This document shows positions 21,699-32,097 of a stretch of DNA of 64,000 bases, piece after piece. How positions within the stretch are numbered: position 1 is the first letter of the stretch; the number at the start of each line of letters is the position of its first letter. Origin of the DNA: Zhihengliuella sp. Its GTDB lineage: Bacteria > Actinomycetota > Actinomycetes > Actinomycetales > Micrococcaceae. The stretch is taken from the NCBI RefSeq assembly GCF_031178195.1, contig NZ_JAPSJL010000005.1, positions 1 through 64,000 of the forward strand, written 5' to 3'. A program made the position numbers and the translations under genes. Under the pieces are notes generated by a model, which saw nothing but the letters and a program-made list of their open reading frames with translations, ran no database searches and was not told where the DNA came from.

Positions 21699-23159
21699 AT
21701 GTCCCCTGCCCAGATCGGGTTCGCCATCCTGGTGCTCGGTGCCTTCCTCATCATCGGGAAGCTCGTCCGCGTCAAGGTCAGATGGGTGCAGCGGCTCTTC
21801 CTGCCCAGCTCGATCGTCGCCGGAGCGCTGCTCCTGGTGCTCGGGCCGCAGGTGCTGGGCAAGCTGGCGGGCGGTCCGCTGGCCGAGGCCGGGATCTTCA
21901 CGCCGCAGATCCTCGAGGTCTGGGGTGCGCTGCCGGGGCTGCTGATCAGCGTCGTCTTCGCGACGATGTTCCTGGGGCAGGATCTGCCGAGGCTCTCCCG
22001 CGCGGTCACGCTGGTCGGCCCGCAGCTCAGCCTCGGAGTCGCTCTCGGGTCGGGGCAGTACGTCGTGGGCCTGCTGCTGGCGATCCTCGTCCTGGTCCCC
22101 TTCTTCTCGGCGACGCCCATGGTGGGAGCGCTCATCGAGGTGGGCTTCGAAGGAGGCCACGGCACCGCGGCGGGCATGCGCGAGACCTTCCAGTCGCTCG
22201 GCTTCGACTCCGGCGCGGACCTCGCCGTCGGCCTGGCGACGGTGGGCATCGTCGGCGGCATCGTCATCGGGATCGGTCTGATCAACTGGGGCGCCCGCAC
22301 GGGCCGGACCGAGTTCCTCAGCGGGCAGGTCTCCGCGTCCGTCGAGGAGCAGCGCGGGCTCTTCCGCCGCGACGAGTACTACCCGGCCGCCACCATGACG
22401 TCCCGGCCCGCCTCCGTCGAGCCGCTCGCCCTGCACGTGGCCATCTGCGCCATCGCCATCCTGGTCGGCTGGGCGATCCTCGAGGCGCTGCGCTGGATCG
22501 AGTCGGCCACCTACGGCACCACGGAGATCCGGGACGGCGTCACGCTGGAGATCTTCGGCAGCGTGCCCCTCTTCCCCCTCGCGCTGCTCGGCGGCGTGAT
22601 CGTCCAGGCCGCGGCCAAGGCGCTCAAGGTCGACCACCTGATCGACCACCAGATGATGCTGCGGATCCAGGGCCTGGCACTGGACTTCCTGATCGTCTCG
22701 GCGATCGCCACGCTGTCCATCACCGCGATCGGCGAGAACCTGGCGACCTTCCTGCTCCTGGCGGCCGCCGGCATCGCCTTCACGGTATCGGTCTTCTACT
22801 TCTTCGCCCCGAAGGTGATCGGCCGGTTCTGGTTCGAGCGCGCGATCGGCGACTTCGGCCAGTCCATGGGCGTCACGGCGACCGGCCTGATCCTCATGCG
22901 CATCGTCGACCCGGAGGCGAAGTCCCCGGCCTTCGAGGCGTTCGGGTACAAGCAGCTGGTCTTCGAGCCGTTCTTCGGCGGCGGGCTGGTGACGGCCATG
23001 GCCGTGCCGATCATCTTCTTCGTGGGTCCCTGGCCGCTGCTGATCGGCATGGGGATCCTGTTCCTGGTCTCCACCGTCGGCGGGATCCTGGCCTTCGGCC
23101 CGACGGCCAGGCGGGAGCACCGGGAGCGGGCGGCGGAGCTCCAGCGCACGCCGGCGTGA
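21699..23159 (+). CDS. gltS: Sodium/glutamate symporter (GltS family)
   Basis: A 486-aa membrane carrier coupling Na+ to glutamate uptake. It shows the ESS family's two inverted repeats, with the Gly-rich re-entrant loops GFEGGHGTAAGM and FGQSMGVTATGL. The length is slightly above the ~400 aa of E. coli GltS because of a ~60-residue cytoplasmic insert around residues 205-265. Start ATG at 21699 has AAGGAGA 8 nt upstream; the frame is open far upstream but overlaps the divergent FNT gene. Confidence 0.9.
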   Translation: MSPAQIGFAILVLGAFLIIGKLVRVKVRWVQRLFLPSSIVAGALLLVLGPQVLGKLAGGPLAEAGIFTPQILEVWGALPGLLISVVFATMFLGQDLPRLSRAVTLVGPQLSLGVALGSGQYVVGLLLAILVLVPFFSATPMVGALIEVGFEGGHGTAAGMRETFQSLGFDSGADLAVGLATVGIVGGIVIGIGLINWGARTGRTEFLSGQVSASVEEQRGLFRRDEYYPAATMTSRPASVEPLALHVAICAIAILVGWAILEALRWIESATYGTTEIRDGVTLEIFGSVPLFPLALLGGVIVQAAAKALKVDHLIDHQMMLRIQGLALDFLIVSAIATLSITAIGENLATFLLLAAAGIAFTVSVFYFFAPKVIGRFWFERAIGDFGQSMGVTATGLILMRIVDPEAKSPAFEAFGYKQLVFEPFFGGGLVTAMAVPIIFFVGPWPLLIGMGILFLVSTVGGILAFGPTARREHRERAAELQRTPA

Positions 23160-23181: not shown

Positions 23182-24507
23182 CTAGCCGACCCGGCCGACG
23201 TCGTCCGTCAGGTGCGCGCGCAGGGTGCTGCCCGCGTATCCGTCGCGGAACCGGCCGCGCTCCCGCAGCACCGGGACCACGTGCTCGACGAAGTCGTCGA
23301 TCCCCTCCGGAAGGGCCGGCGGCATCAGGTTGAACCCGTCGGCGGCGCCGGCGTCCACCCAGCGCTCGATCTCGTCGGCGATCGACTCCGGCGTGCCGAC
23401 GAACGTGGCGTGCCCGCCCCCGGCGGCCAGGTAGCCGAGGAGCTCGCGGACCGTCGGCCGCTTGGACTCGATGATCCGCAGCACGGTGGCGTAGCGCCCC
23501 TGCGGCCCGGTGAACTCCTCGAGCGGCGGCAGCGGCGGCACCGGTCCGTCGAGGTCCCAGCTCGAGGTGTCGGCTCCGACGAAGAACGCGAGCTGGCGCA
23601 GCGAGTCCTCCACGGGCAGCAGCTCGTTGAGGGCGCGCTGGCGCTCGCGGGCCTCGCGCTCGGTGGAGCCGATGAAGGTGACGAGCCCGGGCATGACGAC
23701 GACGGCGTCGGGGTCCCGTCCGCAGCGCGACGCGCGCGCCCGGATGTCCTCTCGGTAGGCGCGCGCCGACTCGAGGTCCCAGGCGACGGCGTAGATGCCC
23801 TCCGCGTACCGGGCGGCGAGGTCGCGGCCCGGCTCGGAGGCGCCCGCCTGGAACAGCACCGGACGGCCCTGCGGCGGCTGGGGCACGTTGAGCGGGCCGG
23901 CGACGTCGAACCACTCGCCGTGGTGGTCCACGGGCCGCAGCTGTGCCGTGTCGACGTAGGCGCCGTCCGCATCGGCGAGGATCGACTCGCGTGGCCACGA
24001 GTCCCAGAGTGCGGTCATCGCGGTGACGAATTCCTCGGCCCGGCCGTACCGCTCCGCGTGGCCGGGGAGGCCGGGCAGGGAGTGGTTGCGGGCCTCCTCG
24101 TCGGTCATCGAGGTCACCACGTTGACGCCGGCGCGGCCCCCGGAGATGTGGTCGAGGCCGGCCAGCTGCCGGGCGGCATGGAAGGGAGTCCAGAAGGTGC
24201 TGGAGACGGTGGTGACCAGGCCGATCCGCTCGGTCGCCCGGGCCAGCGCGGTGAGCGTGGTGATCGGCTCGAGGAACCAGCGCGGGCCGCGGTCGATGCC
24301 GTCGAGGCCCACGGACTGGCCGTCGGCCAGGAAGATCGCGTCGAGTCCGCCGCGCTCGGCCGTGCGGGCCAGCTCCTCCCAGTAGGCGATGTCGCCCAGC
24401 CGGTCGACGCTCGAGTCGGGGGCGCGCCAGGCGGCCGCGTGGTGCCCGCACCCGAACGCGAAGAGGTTCAGGTGCAGGGCCCGGCGTGCGACGGCGTCGT
24501 CCCCCAT
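23182..24507 (-). CDS. FMN-dependent monooxygenase of the NtaA/SnaA/DmoA type
   Basis: A 441-aa luciferase-fold flavin monooxygenase needing FMNH2 from a separate reductase. Family motifs are LNLFAFGCGHHAAAWR, YWEELARTAERGGLDAIFLADG, GLVTTVSSTFWTPFHAAR, GRAGVNVVTS and LFQAGASEPGRDLAAR. The family oxidises C-N or C-S containing substrates. Start ATG at 24507 overlaps the upstream SDR stop by 1 nt (TGATG), so the two genes are coupled. The operon lies behind a TPP riboswitch, which suggests a substrate related to thiamine or its precursors; this is inference. Confidence 0.88.
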   Translation of the reverse strand: MGDDAVARRALHLNLFAFGCGHHAAAWRAPDSSVDRLGDIAYWEELARTAERGGLDAIFLADGQSVGLDGIDRGPRWFLEPITTLTALARATERIGLVTTVSSTFWTPFHAARQLAGLDHISGGRAGVNVVTSMTDEEARNHSLPGLPGHAERYGRAEEFVTAMTALWDSWPRESILADADGAYVDTAQLRPVDHHGEWFDVAGPLNVPQPPQGRPVLFQAGASEPGRDLAARYAEGIYAVAWDLESARAYREDIRARASRCGRDPDAVVVMPGLVTFIGSTEREARERQRALNELLPVEDSLRQLAFFVGADTSSWDLDGPVPPLPPLEEFTGPQGRYATVLRIIESKRPTVRELLGYLAAGGGHATFVGTPESIADEIERWVDAGAADGFNLMPPALPEGIDDFVEHVVPVLRERGRFRDGYAGSTLRAHLTDDVGRVG

Positions 24508-25331
24508 CAGTTCTTCACCAGCCCACCGTCGACCACCAGGTTCTGCCCGGTGGCCGCGCGGGACCACGGGGACGCGAAGAAGAGGACCGTGTCCGCGAAC
24601 TCCTCGGGGGTCGTCACCGAGCCCAGCGGGGTGCCGGCCGCGATCGCATCGAACACGGCCTCGGGGGTGGCGGCGCTGGCGTCCGTGGTGCGCAGCAGCC
24701 CGCCGCTGACCATGTTGACCCGGACGCCGCGCGGGCCGAGATCCGCCGCGAACGTGCGCGTCAGCGAGAGCAGGGCGGCCTTGGCGGCCGTGTAGTCGTG
24801 GTACGGGACCACCGGGTTCTGGAAGAGGTTGGTGCCGATGTTGACCACCCGGCCGGAGCCGAGCGCGTCGAAGTCCGGCAGTGCGGCCTGGATGACGTTC
24901 ACCGCCCCCTCGATGGCGCCGGAGAACTGTCCGGCGAAGGCGTCGTAGCCGATCTCGTGCGCCTGGGCCCGGGCGTCGCCGTTGAAGGAGAAGTCGACCA
25001 GGGCGTTGTTGACGACGGTGGCGACCGGGGACCCGAAGGCCGCGCCGCCGCGTGCGATGAGCGCGTCGACCTGCTCGCGGTCCCGCACGTCGGCCCGGAC
25101 CGCCACCGCTTGCCCGGGGTGGGCGGCGACGATCTCCTCGGCCGCGTCGCGGCTGGAGCGGTAGCCGATGACGACGCGGGCGCCGTGGCGCAGGAAGGCC
25201 TCGGTGATGCTCCGGCCGAGTCCGCGCGCGCCGCCGGTGACGACGACGACCTGCTCGGCGATCGGCGGTGCGCTGGTGGGGGCGGCGGAGGCGTCCTCGT
25301 GGACTGCGGTACCGGCTTGGGTGGTCGTCAT
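24507..25331 (-). CDS. Short-chain dehydrogenase/reductase under TPP riboswitch
   Basis: A 274-aa SDR. A ~25-residue variable N-terminus is followed by VVVVTGGARGLGRSITEAF (cofactor-binding TGxxxGxG), the NNALVDF motif (NNAG position), and YHDYTAAKAALLSLTR carrying the catalytic Tyr and Lys; the usual Ser is in the VNIGTN region and less clear. The C-terminal VNMVSGGLL and VVDGG are typical of FabG-like members. The substrate is unknown. It is the first gene after the riboswitch; start ATG at 25331 with AGAAGGG upstream. Confidence 0.88.
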   Translation of the reverse strand: MTTTQAGTAVHEDASAAPTSAPPIAEQVVVVTGGARGLGRSITEAFLRHGARVVIGYRSSRDAAEEIVAAHPGQAVAVRADVRDREQVDALIARGGAAFGSPVATVVNNALVDFSFNGDARAQAHEIGYDAFAGQFSGAIEGAVNVIQAALPDFDALGSGRVVNIGTNLFQNPVVPYHDYTAAKAALLSLTRTFAADLGPRGVRVNMVSGGLLRTTDASAATPEAVFDAIAAGTPLGSVTTPEEFADTVLFFASPWSRAATGQNLVVDGGLVKN

Positions 25332-25430
25332 GTGCGGGCCCTTCTGCTGGCGGCGAGGGCGCATGCGGACGCTCGGCGGCGCCGCCCGTGGCGTCACGCG
25401 ACGGGCGACCCGCGGAGGATCGCTGCAGAC

Positions 25431-25506
25431 ATCCCTACGCCAGTGCTAACTGGATCAGGTTCGACGGGTTCTCTCTCAGCCACCGCTGGTGGCGCCCCGA
25501 GTCATT
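25431..25506 (-). promoter_or_regulatory. TPP riboswitch (THI element)
   Basis: On the minus strand the conserved order is present: GGGGCGCC stem segment, GGCTGAGA core, then GAACCTGATCCAGTTAGCAC and CTGGCGTAGGGA closing the second arm. These are the diagnostic pyrimidine- and pyrophosphate-sensing segments of the TPP aptamer. The SDR start lies 100 nt downstream; within that interval GCCCGT (25384-25389) and ACGGGC (25401-25406) can pair and may form part of the expression platform. TPP binding would be expected to switch the SDR-monooxygenase operon off. Confidence 0.93.
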
Positions 25507-25627
25507 GCCTGAGGACCGTACCACGAGCGCCCGGTCCACCGAGACGCGGCTCACGACGACGGCGCCCGCGTGACGGGCAGTCCACCGTGACGCTCAGCCG
25601 ACGGTGCAGCTCGGGCCACCGTGACGC

Positions 25628-27303
25628 TCAGGCCTCGGTCACCGTGCCGGCGTCGACGCGCCAGTGCCGGTCCGTCCGGACGGTGGCGAGCATGCGCCGG
25701 TCGTGCGTGACCAGCAGCAGCGTGCCCTCGTAGCCCTCGAGCGCTTGCTCCAGCTGCTCGATCGCCGGCAGGTCCAGGTGGTTGGTCGGCTCGTCGAGAA
25801 CCAGCAGGTTGACGCCCTGCGCCTGCAGCACGGCCAACCCGGCCCTGGTCCGCTCCCCCGGCGACAGCTCTCCGGCGGGACGGTTCACGTGCTCGGCCCT
25901 GAGGCCGAACTTCGCCAGCAGCGTGCGCACCTCGCCGGACGCCAGCTCCGGGACCACGCGCTCGAACGCGGCGGCCAGTGGCTCCGGGCCGGCCAGCAGC
26001 GAGCGCGCCTGGTCGATCTCCCCGATCTGCACGCTCGGGCCCAGGCTCGCGGTCCCCTCGTCCGGACGACGGCGGCCGAGCAGCGTGCGCAGCAGCGTGG
26101 ACTTCCCGGCGCCGTTGGGGCCGGTGATCCCGATCCGCTCCCCGGCGTTGACCTGCAGCGACACCGGGCCGAGCGTGAACTCGCCCTGCCGGACCACGGC
26201 ACCGCTGAGCGTGGAGACCACGGAGCTGGAGCGCGGCGCCGCACCGATGGTGAAGACCAGCTGCCACTCCTTGCGCGGCTCCTCGACCTCCTCCAGCCGC
26301 GCGATCCGGCTCTCCATCTGCCGGACCTTCTGCGCCTGCTTCTCGCTGGACTCGGTGGACGCCTTGCGCTTGATCTTGTCGTTGTCCGGCGACTTCTTCA
26401 TCGCGTTGCGCACGCCCTGGCTGGACCACTCGCGCTGCGTCCGCGCCCGGGAGACCAGGTCGGCCTTCTTCTCGGCGAACTCGTCGTACTTCTCCCGCAG
26501 GTGACGCCGGACGGTCGCCCGCTCCTCCAGGTAGGCGTCGTACCCGCCGCCGTACACGCGGTTGGCGCCCTGCGCCAGGTCCAGCTCGAGCACCCGGGTG
26601 ACGCTCCGGGCCAGGAACTCGCGGTCGTGGCTGACCAGCACCACTCCCCCGCGCAGTCCGCGCACGAACTCCTCCAGCCGCTCGAGCCCGTCGAGATCCA
26701 GATCGTTCGTCGGCTCGTCCAGCAGGACGACGTCGAACCGCGAGAGCAGGAGCGCGGCCAGCCCCACGCGCGCGGCCTGCCCGCCGGAGAGCGACGTCAT
26801 GAGCGTCTGCTCGGCGCGGTCGGCGGTGAGCGGCCCGTCCAGGTCCAGGCCGAGCTCGGCGAGCACCACCGGGAGCCGCTCGTCGAGGTCGGCGGCGCCG
26901 CTGGCGAGCCACCGGTCGAGCGCCGTGGCGTACACGTCGCCGGGGTCCGCACCGCCGGCCGCCGCCTCAGGGTCGGCGAGTGCCAGCGCGGCGGCCTCCA
27001 TCCTGCGCGTGGCCTCGGCGCAGCCGGTCCGCCGGCCGATGTACTCGGCGACAGTCTCGCCCGGGACGCGCTCGTGCTCCTGCGGCAGCCAGCCGACGAA
27101 CGCGTCGGCCGGCGACAGGGTGACGTTCCCGGCCTGGGGCTCCTCGACGCCGGCGAGGAGCTTGAGCAGGGTGGACTTGCCGGCGCCGTTGGCGCCCACC
27201 ACGCCGACGACGTCGCCGGGGCGACCGTGAGGTCCAGGGAGTCGAACAGCGTGCGGTGGCCGTAGCCGCCGGCGAGGCCGTGGGCGACGAGAGTTGCGGT
27301 CAT
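25628..27303 (-). pseudogene. ABC-F family ATPase with a single-base frameshift near the N-terminus
   Basis: A duplicated ABC ATPase without membrane domain, of the ABC-F type acting on ribosomes (antibiotic protection or translation control). Motifs are VGANGAGKSTLLKLLAG, SLSGGQAARVGLA, LLDEPTNDLD, an arginine/lysine-rich linker, then GPNGAGKSTLLRTLLG, LSPGERTRAGLA and LVLDEPTNHLD. The natural N-terminus (MTATLVAHGLAGGYGHRTLF, start 27303) is in a different frame from the rest. The frames join at a four-G run (27218-27221) where one more G would restore GDVVGVVG. Either a real disruption or a homopolymer sequencing error; otherwise the 560-aa gene is intact. Confidence 0.85.
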
Positions 27304-30352: not shown

Positions 30353-31582
30353 ATGCCTCCACTCCCCGCCTCGGGCTCCGCACCCTTCGCCCTGTCCGTA
30401 CTGGCCGCCGGGGGAACCGGCGTGGGCGCCACGGCCAGCCAAGGCTTGACGAATACGATCTCGCTGGCCCGGGCGGCGGACGCGCGCGGCTACCACCGCT
30501 TCTGGATGTCCGAACATCACGCCATGGCGGCGACGTCGGTCTCCTCGCCGGCCCTGATGGTCGCCCGACTCATCCCCGAGACGGCGCGTATCCGCCTCGG
30601 CGCGGGCGGGGTGATGCTGCCGAACCATGCGCCACTGCTGGTCTCCGAGCAGTTCGGCATGCTGGAGGCGCTGGCCCCCGGCCGGATCGATCTGGGGCTG
30701 GGACGAGCCCCCGGCACCGACGGGGCGACGGCCGCCGCCCTCCGCCGCGGCGCGGATGCCAACGAGGGGTTCGCGCAGCAGGTCCTCGATCTGCTCGGCT
30801 TCCTGCGGGGCGAGTTTCCACCCGGTCACGCCTATCAGAACGTCCACGCCGTGCCCGGCCCGTGGCAGGCGGAACAGAACCGGGTCACGGACGCGGCGAT
30901 GGGGCCCGAACCCTGGATCCTCGGCTCGTCGCTGTACTCGGCACGGCTGGCCGCGCAACTGGGTCGCCCCTACGCTTTCGCCCTGCAGTTCGGCGACGCT
31001 GACGTCGACACGGCGCTGCGTCTCTATCGGGAGGCGTTCCAGCCCTCCGAGGCCCTCGCCGAGCCGCGCACGCTGATCAGCGTGCCCGCCGCCATCAGCG
31101 ACGACGCCGCCGCGGCCGGGCGCCAGGCGGCGACGTCCGCGATGGCAATGCTCCGCATGTTCAAGCGGGAGGGCTGCCTGCTCCTGCCGCCCGAGGAGGT
31201 GGAGGCATACAAGGCCACCGCGCAGGAGCGCCAGATCCTGGACGCCTACACCGCTCGTACCTTCCATGGCGCCCCCGCGACCGTCGCCGCCCGCCTCGAG
31301 GCGCTGCAGGCGCGGACCGGCGCGGACGAGCTCATGCTCGTCGTCGGCAGGCACTCGGCCGCCCTCGACGAGCGCGGCATCGGGCTCATCGCCGACCACT
31401 ACGGCCTCCCCCGCAACTGCCCGACCAGACCAATCCCACCTCAACCCACCATCGAATGGAGCACCACATGTCCGCACCACGCCGCGCCCTCATCGTCATC
31501 GACGCCCAGCAGGAGTACTTCGAGGGCCTCCTCCCGATCCAGTACCCGGTCCGCGACGAATCGATCGCCCGCATTCGCGTAG
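30353..31582 (+). CDS. Luciferase-like (LLM, MsnO8-type) flavin oxidoreductase with read-through tail
   Basis: A 409-aa ORF. Residues 10-350 match LLM flavin oxidoreductases of about 340 aa: SVLAAGGTGVGATASQGL, FWMSEHHAMAATSVSSPA, ARIRLGAGGVMLPNHAPL, RIDLGLGRAPGTD and a C-terminal ADELMLVVGRHS. After LPRN (about residue 352) the frame lacks the expected stop and runs on for ~57 Ser/Arg/Pro-rich residues that overlap the next gene by 115 bp in another frame. The extension looks like shadow translation, so a stop was probably lost here. The substrate is unknown; the neighbour hydrolase suggests a detoxification pair. Confidence 0.85.
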   Translation: MPPLPASGSAPFALSVLAAGGTGVGATASQGLTNTISLARAADARGYHRFWMSEHHAMAATSVSSPALMVARLIPETARIRLGAGGVMLPNHAPLLVSEQFGMLEALAPGRIDLGLGRAPGTDGATAAALRRGADANEGFAQQVLDLLGFLRGEFPPGHAYQNVHAVPGPWQAEQNRVTDAAMGPEPWILGSSLYSARLAAQLGRPYAFALQFGDADVDTALRLYREAFQPSEALAEPRTLISVPAAISDDAAAAGRQAATSAMAMLRMFKREGCLLLPPEEVEAYKATAQERQILDAYTARTFHGAPATVAARLEALQARTGADELMLVVGRHSAALDERGIGLIADHYGLPRNCPTRPIPPQPTIEWSTTCPHHAAPSSSSTPSRSTSRASSRSSTRSATNRSPAFA

Positions 31583-32097
31583 CGATCGAGTCCGCCGAGC
31601 AGGCGGGCGCGCCGATCGTGCTCGTCCAGCACGAGCTCCCCGCGGAGGCCCCGGTCTTCGCCGCCGAGTCGGCGACCTGGCGGAACCACCCGAACGTCGC
31701 CGCCTACGAGGAGCAGGCGGCCAAGCGCATCCGCAAGGAGTTCTCGAGCATCTTCGCCGGCACTGGTCTCGAGGATTGGCTGCACGAGCAAGGCGTCGAC
31801 ACCATCACCCTCGTCGGCTACATGACTAACAACTGCGTTCTCGCATCCGCGGCCGCCGCCGAGCCGCTGGGCATCGCCGTCGAAGTCCTCTCCGACGCCA
31901 CGGGCGCCATCGACCTCGCGAACGACGCCGGCAGGGTGCCCGCCCGCGAAGTCCACGAGACGCTCATGGCTCTGCTCCACTCGAACTGGGCGGCCGTAGC
32001 GGACACCCAGACCTGGTCCGGCGCACTGCGAGCAGGCGAGCCGCTGCCCAAGAGCGATCTCGTCAGTTCGGCCGCGCAGGGACGCGCCAACGACTGA
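31468..32097 (+). CDS. Isochorismatase-family cysteine hydrolase
   Basis: A 209-aa hydrolase with the family catalytic triad visible as D12 (LIVIDAQQEYF), K90 (RIRKEF) and C123 (TNNCVLASA), plus the cis-peptide region GYMTNN before the Cys. Members cleave isochorismate, nicotinamide or other amides; the substrate is undetermined. Of two possible ATGs the one at 31468 is preferred because GGAG sits 6 nt before it. It overlaps the tail of the flavin oxidoreductase ORF, so the two are probably co-expressed. Confidence 0.88.
   Translation: MSAPRRALIVIDAQQEYFEGLLPIQYPVRDESIARIRVAIESAEQAGAPIVLVQHELPAEAPVFAAESATWRNHPNVAAYEEQAAKRIRKEFSSIFAGTGLEDWLHEQGVDTITLVGYMTNNCVLASAAAAEPLGIAVEVLSDATGAIDLANDAGRVPAREVHETLMALLHSNWAAVADTQTWSGALRAGEPLPKSDLVSSAAQGRAND

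Follow-up and report, generated by a model that had tools for sequence, protein, structure and literature searches.

A putative TPP riboswitch-controlled reductase–monooxygenase pair with a proposed role in thiamin salvage

Introduction

The described systems closest to the locus reported here are the salvage operons under a thiamin pyrophosphate (TPP) riboswitch, which comprise thiM-thiE-thiD, tenA, ThiXYZ and YkoEDC. Bacteria can obtain vitamin B1 by recovering its precursors from degradation products, which is a recognised route (PMC12442306), and Rhizobium leguminosarum depends on a salvage pathway that involves thiM and thiD (PMC11103875). The present locus lies in a 64,000-nucleotide (nt) stretch of DNA from Zhihengliuella sp. 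(contig NZ_JAPSJL010000005.1, positions 1 to 64,000), which is called the window, and consists of a TPP element followed by the genes of a short-chain dehydrogenase/reductase (SDR) and a monooxygenase (MO) of the NtaA/DmoA family. The same riboswitch family (RF00059), the predicted low-TPP-on logic and, in several relatives, the operons themselves are shared with the known salvage systems. The SDR–MO unit adds two oxidoreductases, for which no assigned pathway step was found.

The solved relatives of the MO in a fold search included CmoJ (YtnJ), BdsA, the NtaA-like 3sdo, EmoA and DmoA, with identities of 31–39%. Their roles, which lie in the use of S-alkyl cysteine, dibenzothiophene (DBT) sulfone, nitrilotriacetate (NTA), ethylenediaminetetraacetate (EDTA) or dimethyl sulfide (DMS), differ from the role proposed for the MO. 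RcaE (PDB code 5w48) shares the NtaA/DmoA fold with the MO at 33% identity, and it oxidatively cuts the ribityl chain off isoalloxazine, which is a precedent for attack on the side chain of a vitamin ring (PMC12746152). RcaE degrades riboflavin, whereas the MO appears to be wired to thiamin shortage and stands with salvage genes in some relatives.

The salvage of amino-hydroxymethylpyrimidine (amino-HMP) and formylamino-HMP by TenA and YlmB ends in hydroxymethylpyrimidine (HMP), which is also the end product proposed for the SDR–MO pair; the TenA/YlmB route is hydrolytic, whereas that of the pair would be oxidative. In 2002, Rodionov et al. reportedly named a THI-element gene 'oarX' after 3-oxoacyl-acyl carrier protein (ACP) reductase, and they are said to have assigned no reaction to it and to have discussed no monooxygenase partner. 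This gene presumably belongs to the same SDR family. In the literature search, no paper was found that joined oarX with thiamin or the TPP riboswitch with nitrilotriacetate monooxygenase, and the combination of TPP riboswitch, monooxygenase, short-chain dehydrogenase and thiamine also returned none. The available excerpt of a 2013 survey of TPP regulons names neither the SDR nor the MO gene (PMC3766115). What is claimed as new, within this search, is therefore a step for which no assignment was found, the MO partner and the operon evidence, and not the first TPP element before this SDR family. With its riboswitch label, the conserved pair marks a gap in B1 metabolism that can be tested directly. 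Its assignment would name two families that are now annotated as 3-oxoacyl-ACP reductase and luciferase-like (LLM) monooxygenase, and could change which B1 precursors individual bacteria are predicted to need.

Results and Discussion

The TPP element and the gene pair in the window

The features of the locus are collected in Table 1. The TPP element was matched by RF00059 with 71.3 bits (gathering threshold 54.3, E-value 4.8e-12), and the alignment spanned model positions 1–105, that is, the full-length aptamer. The aptamer placed at 25431–25506 of the minus strand by an earlier reading made from the sequence alone (the sequence-only reading) falls within this match, and the Rfam search that it had proposed as a check on that strand was significant and above the gathering threshold. 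The element was the sole Rfam match above gathering in the window, which contained no second TPP match above that threshold. It was also recovered with 71.5 bits by a covariance model of our own (R1), which was built from 22 TPP elements picked away from the gene pair and was run on 60 sources; the structure given by RNAalifold was poor (16 pairs), so that R1 is largely a sequence model.

The riboswitch stands ahead of the SDR gene as had been claimed, at 83 nt from the preferred ATG and not at the 100 nt first stated. This ATG gives the 274-residue protein, and an alternative upstream GTG would give 296 residues; the similarity to most relatives begins at residues 17–26 of the 274. The overlap of the SDR stop with the monooxygenase start was confirmed as TGATG, which is an overlap of 1 nt. 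The scan of 25300–25660 gave neither a sigma-70 promoter-like site nor an intrinsic terminator, the leader folded no better than shuffled sequences (z −0.23), and no expression platform emerged from the terminator scan or the folding. The element is predicted to be ON at low TPP and to act as a repressing switch on both the SDR and the MO.

Table 1. Features of the riboswitch locus and side features of the window
Feature	Coordinates	Strand	Product or family	Source
TPP riboswitch aptamer	25415..25509	−	THI element, RF00059	cmscan, model R1
SDR oxidoreductase	24507..25331	−	274 aa (amino acids), NF006393 (PRK08642, named 3-oxoacyl-ACP reductase)	NCBIfam
Monooxygenase (MO)	23182..24507	−	441 aa, NtaA/DmoA-family flavin mononucleotide (FMN)-dependent monooxygenase, TIGR03860	NCBIfam, Pfam
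Membrane-protein-like open reading frame (ORF)	21699..23159	+	486 aa	
MsnO8-type ORF	30353..31582	+	luciferase-like oxidoreductase	
Isochorismatase-type ORF	31456..32097	+	hydrolase	

The SDR scored 410.2 bits against NF006393, for which the cut-off was 292. Its assignment as FabG was not supported, with scores under the cut-off for both TIGR01830 (115.3 vs 297.75) and PRK05653 (153.5 vs 296). The predicted structure had the SDR fold with a predicted local distance difference test (pLDDT) score of 81.5, and its best PDB match was 4nbu at 29% identity. The active-site set was Thr167-Tyr180-Lys184, in which Thr replaced the usual Ser, and this Thr differed from the classical Ser-Tyr-Lys of FabG. 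None of the three residues, the Tyr-x-x-x-Lys pair included, varied in the alignment (134 of 134 rows, which were not de-duplicated); F114, F116 and H178 were also invariant in these rows.

The identity of the second gene as an NtaA-type flavin monooxygenase, given in the sequence-only reading, was borne out by 509.4 bits against TIGR03860 (cut-off 279.7), and the Pfam family Bac_luciferase also matched. The predicted MO structure (pLDDT 88.7) showed a luciferase-like fold in Foldseek, and its PDB matches included CmoJ/YtnJ (6ask), BdsA (5xkc), the NTA-monooxygenase-like 3sdo and the riboflavin lyase RcaE (5w48).

Conservation of the riboswitch link

A regular expression for the TPP core missed nearly all relatives, and covariance models were used instead. 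The Rfam model itself was run on sampled loci and on 50 whole genomes. The scan of named genomes yielded 55 loci with an MO relative, and in most of those with an MO of at least 52% identity the SDR lay directly upstream of the MO. The first set comprised the window, L005–L046, L048–L050 and L064–L066, that is, 49 rows and 47 distinct loci. Judged by coordinates, L064, L066 and L192 were repeats of L005, L006 and L042, and L087, L089, L092, L094, L095 and L097 were repeats of L007, L015, L016, L025, L023 and L021, respectively.

According to R1, an upstream TPP element on the coding strand was present in 48 of the 49 first-set rows (46 of the 47 distinct loci). It stood before the SDR in 42 rows and before the MO in three (Dietzia), and intervening genes occurred in three (L012, L014 and L029). 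The sole miss was L015, the contig of which starts inside the SDR. A close MO orthologue was found in 84 of 345 genomes of the family sample, and 43 of the 46 loci examined there carried the element (38 of 40 after the removal of six first-set repeats). The misses were L089, which is the repeat of the cut locus L015; L106, in which the element sits before thiM and is visible in the longer stretch L154; and L104. Among 81 sampled genomes of the genus to which Staphylococcus auricularis belongs, 50 had an SDR above the family cut-off. For the best 30 of 54 matches in this genus, a TPP element preceded the SDR in 30 of 30 loci, and the MO followed the SDR in 29. Of 14 control genomes, only that of Corynebacterium glutamicum had NF006393. 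Moreover, RF00059 confirmed the TPP elements at 10 of 10 sampled loci.

Outside this group the element was absent: R1 found it at none of the 11 loci with distant MO homologues (L047, L051–L059 and L061), and the 20 paralogues at 42–49% identity (L113–L132, group B) had neither a TPP element nor an NF006393-type SDR partner in any case. The sequence-only reading had staked its claim on homologues of the pair being associated with TPP elements elsewhere, and this association held (46/47, 38/40 and 30/30 loci vs 0/11 and 0/20 outside the clade). These counts show that the predicted regulatory link of both enzymes to a TPP element is repeated across lineages. Furthermore, in three Dietzia genomes the MO and the SDR were apart, and each had its own TPP element.

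Three observations were made beside these results. Seventeen of the 20 group B paralogues adjoined ABC-transporter-like genes, and the group is a separate, perhaps uptake-linked set of monooxygenases. In the Dietzia locus L167, a guanidine-III riboswitch at 905–971 precedes the TPP element of the SDR by approximately 1 kb. One contig of Brachybacterium massiliense (L019/L020) held two copies of the MO and SDR; the match statistics of the copies were identical and a separate TPP element accompanied each, which suggests that the pair was recently duplicated or that the assembly repeats it.

The MO tree was built from 85 sequences, with every second or third TPP-linked sequence taken, by a quick search in which long branches were flagged. 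The 54 TPP-linked rows formed one clade with a Shimodaira–Hasegawa-like approximate likelihood ratio test (SH-aLRT) support of 100; L089 was labelled as TPP-linked in it though its contig is cut before the element. In 109 MOs of the TPP clade, 21 positions were at least 95% fixed and were rare in the 20 paralogues, and F106, M135, H143 and Y240 were among the fixed residues without a counterpart there. Translations with internal stops and short matches had been dropped from the MO set, and L044, L046 and other loci were omitted from the structure alignments. The Staphylococcus MOs were nested among those of Actinomycetota in the sampled tree.

The arrangement TPP-SDR-MO was also found on plasmids of Pseudochrobactrum, Mesobacillus and Rhodococcus, with the element confirmed by Rfam in three of three. 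An Exiguobacterium plasmid carried TPP-SDR with the MO split in two frames. Plasmids of Neorhizobium, Gemmobacter and Rhizobium had the order TPP-thiM-thiE-thiD-SDR, and the MO was not found in the 12.7-kb stretches examined. Since copies occur on plasmids and the staphylococcal copies are nested, the cassette appears to move between phyla with its switch retained.

Gene neighbourhoods

ThiM, ThiE, ThiD, ThiX/Y/Z, ThiO and YkoE were queried near the pair; ThiC, ThiG and TenA were not part of this query. At most loci only the SDR and the MO stood behind the TPP switch, and the genes beyond the pair were mostly unshared between loci. An operon with salvage genes or a precursor-type transporter was present at 4 of the 45 first-set loci (L005–L046 and L048–L050). 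Over all samples, the SDR or the MO shared an operon with thiM/thiE/thiD or with such a transporter at L007, L012, L014, L029, L154, L155, L159, L205, L206 and L208. The order was TPP-thiM-thiE-SDR-MO at L012, L029 and L154, TPP-thiM-thiE-thiD-SDR-MO at L159 and TPP-SDR-MO-thiM-thiE at L007. L155 had an MO with its own TPP element and a separate TPP-SDR-thiM-thiE-thiD operon. At L160, TPP-SDR-MO was followed by TPP-thiD-MFS (major facilitator superfamily) transporter-thiM-thiE; L161 was arranged similarly, and its intervening gene was not examined. L014 read TPP-NMT1/THI5-like binding protein-permease-ATPase-SDR-MO, and YkoE-like genes adjoined the pair at L100 and L153.

The sequence-only reading had put forward that the pair salvages or modifies a thiamin precursor, and this is supported by the minority of operons with thiM/thiE/thiD or an ATP-binding cassette (ABC) transporter of the NMT1/THI5 type; the co-occurrence with ThiE, ThiD and ThiM that it had proposed to survey was found in several lineages and was absent at most loci. 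The opening or oxidation of a ring, which it gave as an example, is at most a candidate chemistry. Because the plasmid operons place the SDR behind thiM-thiE-thiD with no MO alongside, the SDR appears to be the central salvage enzyme, with the MO as a partner that supplies it.

Proposed function and alternative explanations

On these comparative data, the SDR–MO unit very probably has a role in thiamin salvage. Which half of thiamin is concerned was explored through carriage in the 345 family genomes. Carriage was defined by an MO orthologue of at least 533 bits plus the partial G087, and does not imply an SDR gene in each of the 84 carriers. Fragmented or split ThiC genes (G004, G132, G143, G190 and G380) were scored as ThiC-negative. 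The threshold for ThiM was 170 bits, so that G222, G333 and G352 (30–39 bits), two of them carriers, were left out of the count. Neither ThiM nor full-length ThiC was present in 30 of the 84 carriers. Four Kocuria genomes that occur in both samples according to their contig coordinates (G031/G240, G035/G150, G036/G218 and G040/G132) had no ThiM and no intact ThiC, and ThiG and TenA were present. The genome of the window itself (G000; 3.1 Mb, 99.97% complete) lacked ThiC and had ThiG and ThiM. Since the Kocuria genomes and this genome have ThiG without intact ThiC, they need the pyrimidine. This favours a substrate on the pyrimidine side, or else a whole derivative of thiamin from which both halves are released; on balance, the pair is slightly more likely than not to act on the pyrimidine side.

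The simplest scheme that accounts for the genes, we infer, is a monooxygenase that makes an aldehyde beside the ring, and after it an aldehyde reductase that gives the alcohol used by ThiD. At low TPP both enzymes would be made. Enzymes of the MO family need reduced flavin, and the MO would work with FMNH2, supplied by a general flavin reductase, and O2. It would hydroxylate the carbon beside the nitrogen in a compound of the pyrimidine-CH2-N type, for which amino-HMP, N-formyl-amino-HMP and damaged thiamin that retains the bridge are candidates. TenA converts amino-HMP to HMP. As TenA was present in 39 of 45 carriers, amino-HMP is a weak candidate on its own and is probably not the sole substrate. 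The resulting carbinolamine would break down to 4-amino-2-methylpyrimidine-5-carbaldehyde and an amine or the thiazole half, and the SDR would reduce the aldehyde to HMP with NAD(P)H. HMP would then be phosphorylated by ThiD, freed thiazole, if any, would pass to ThiM, and the halves would be joined by ThiE. Behind thiM-thiE-thiD with no MO alongside, the SDR might reduce aldehyde that arrives by other means. Taken as a whole, a TPP-repressed salvage module with oxidative pyrimidine recovery comes close to an even chance without reaching it, and the exact two steps, MO oxidation and then SDR reduction to HMP, are offered tentatively. The most specific form is rather unlikely to hold in full: that the MO is a flavin-dependent oxidative lyase which cuts the bond between the pyrimidine methylene and nitrogen in thiamin-derived compounds, that the SDR completes the recovery of HMP, and that the two form an O2-dependent counterpart of TenA on a riboswitch cassette spread horizontally in Actinomycetota, Bacillota and Pseudomonadota.

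Several observations weigh against such a pyrimidine-directed salvage module. No queried thi gene lay in the stretch at 41 of the 45 first-set loci, and most of the family-sample operons (L154, L155, L159, L160 and L161) had been chosen for ThiM near the MO. At L104 an SDR–MO pair lacks a TPP element in the bases ahead of the SDR, and the Caballeronia plasmids L204, L209 and L210 carried the SDR without a TPP element or queried thi neighbours and, in the stretches taken, also without the MO. The SDR has Thr at the usual Ser position. A flavin reductase was not detected among the five window neighbours scanned with Pfam and NCBIfam, other loci not being searched for one. ThiC was present in 31 of 84 carriers vs 105 of 261 other genomes (Fisher p=0.61). 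ThiM was found in 42 of 84 carriers vs 86 of 261 others (p=0.006, with no correction for descent), and the commonest thi neighbours were thiM and thiE; both favour a thiazole or whole-thiamin substrate. TenA was present in 40 of 46 genomes examined (including the 39 carriers mentioned above), and the E. coli control gave no TenA match.

Two simple roles were rejected on these numbers. The pair as a replacement for ThiC does not agree with carriage that is independent of ThiC, and an early impression of ThiC loss from 46 genomes arose from the base rate of the family. A pair that always feeds ThiM is contradicted by the 42 of 84 carriers without ThiM.

The enrichment of ThiM speaks for salvage of the thiazole side, in which the MO and SDR would turn a thiazole that is oxidised or substituted back into hydroxyethylthiazole (HET) and ThiM would phosphorylate it. 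The presence of thiM in the operon or cluster at L007, L012, L029, L154, L155, L159, L160 and L161 and in the three thiM-thiE-thiD-SDR plasmid loci agrees with such a route. HET would be a dead end in the half of the carriers that lack ThiM, where a thiazole alcohol as the sole product would be useless, and the four Kocuria genomes need pyrimidine and not thiazole. The transporter of L014 has an NMT1/THI5-type binding protein, which is a pyrimidine type. Thiazole-side salvage is thus considered unlikely. The pair might instead remove a damaged vitamin or antivitamin, such as oxidised thiamin or a toxic pyrimidine, with low TPP as the signal of poisoning and the agent destroyed or recycled. Sporadic carriage, the nested staphylococcal sequences, plasmid copies in three phyla and independence from ThiC resemble an optional protective trait; this explanation is nevertheless distinctly unlikely, for ThiM, ThiE and ThiD as neighbours fit the recovery of halves over plain destruction, and the SDR occurs in TPP-thiM-thiE-thiD-SDR operons with no MO alongside.

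The same operons count against the SDR being a flavin reductase partner of the MO rather than an aldehyde reductase, as does its separation from the MO in Dietzia and at L155. The need of the MO family for reduced flavin and the lack of a flavin reductase among the scanned window neighbours would suit this assignment, which is hardly credible all the same. Scavenging of sulfur, nitrogen or carbon unrelated to thiamin, with the riboswitch gained by chance or hitch-hiking, would accord with the reactions of solved family members on S-alkyl cysteine, DBT sulfone, DMS and EDTA, with the transporter-adjacent group B paralogues that lack TPP elements, and with the absence of thi neighbours at most loci. 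The TPP element in 48/49, 43/46 and 30/30 rows vs 0/31 outside the clade, the thi operons in several lineages and the retention of an element by each of the separated genes make it very improbable.

The own genome and the surroundings of the window

Four TPP matches were found in the own genome, three of them above gathering, the window element included. One element precedes a gene in which thiM and thiE are fused, with thiD and tenA behind it. The fusion (contig C9 of G000, locus L156, 3695–5416) encodes 573 aa with the Pfam domains HK and TMP-TENI, and downstream of it a single open frame resembles a thiD-tenA fusion. Another element lies ahead of a gene that is thiO-like by eye, with thiG behind. 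The fourth match, with 52.6 bits (below gathering), lies ahead of a YkoE-like permease gene.

Within the window, the membrane-protein-like ORF of Table 1 is convergent with the pair; it matched no Pfam or NCBIfam family at 1e-3 and resembles a sodium/solute symporter by eye. The MsnO8-type and isochorismatase-type ORFs overlap each other and lie approximately 5 kb from the SDR–MO pair on the opposite strand.
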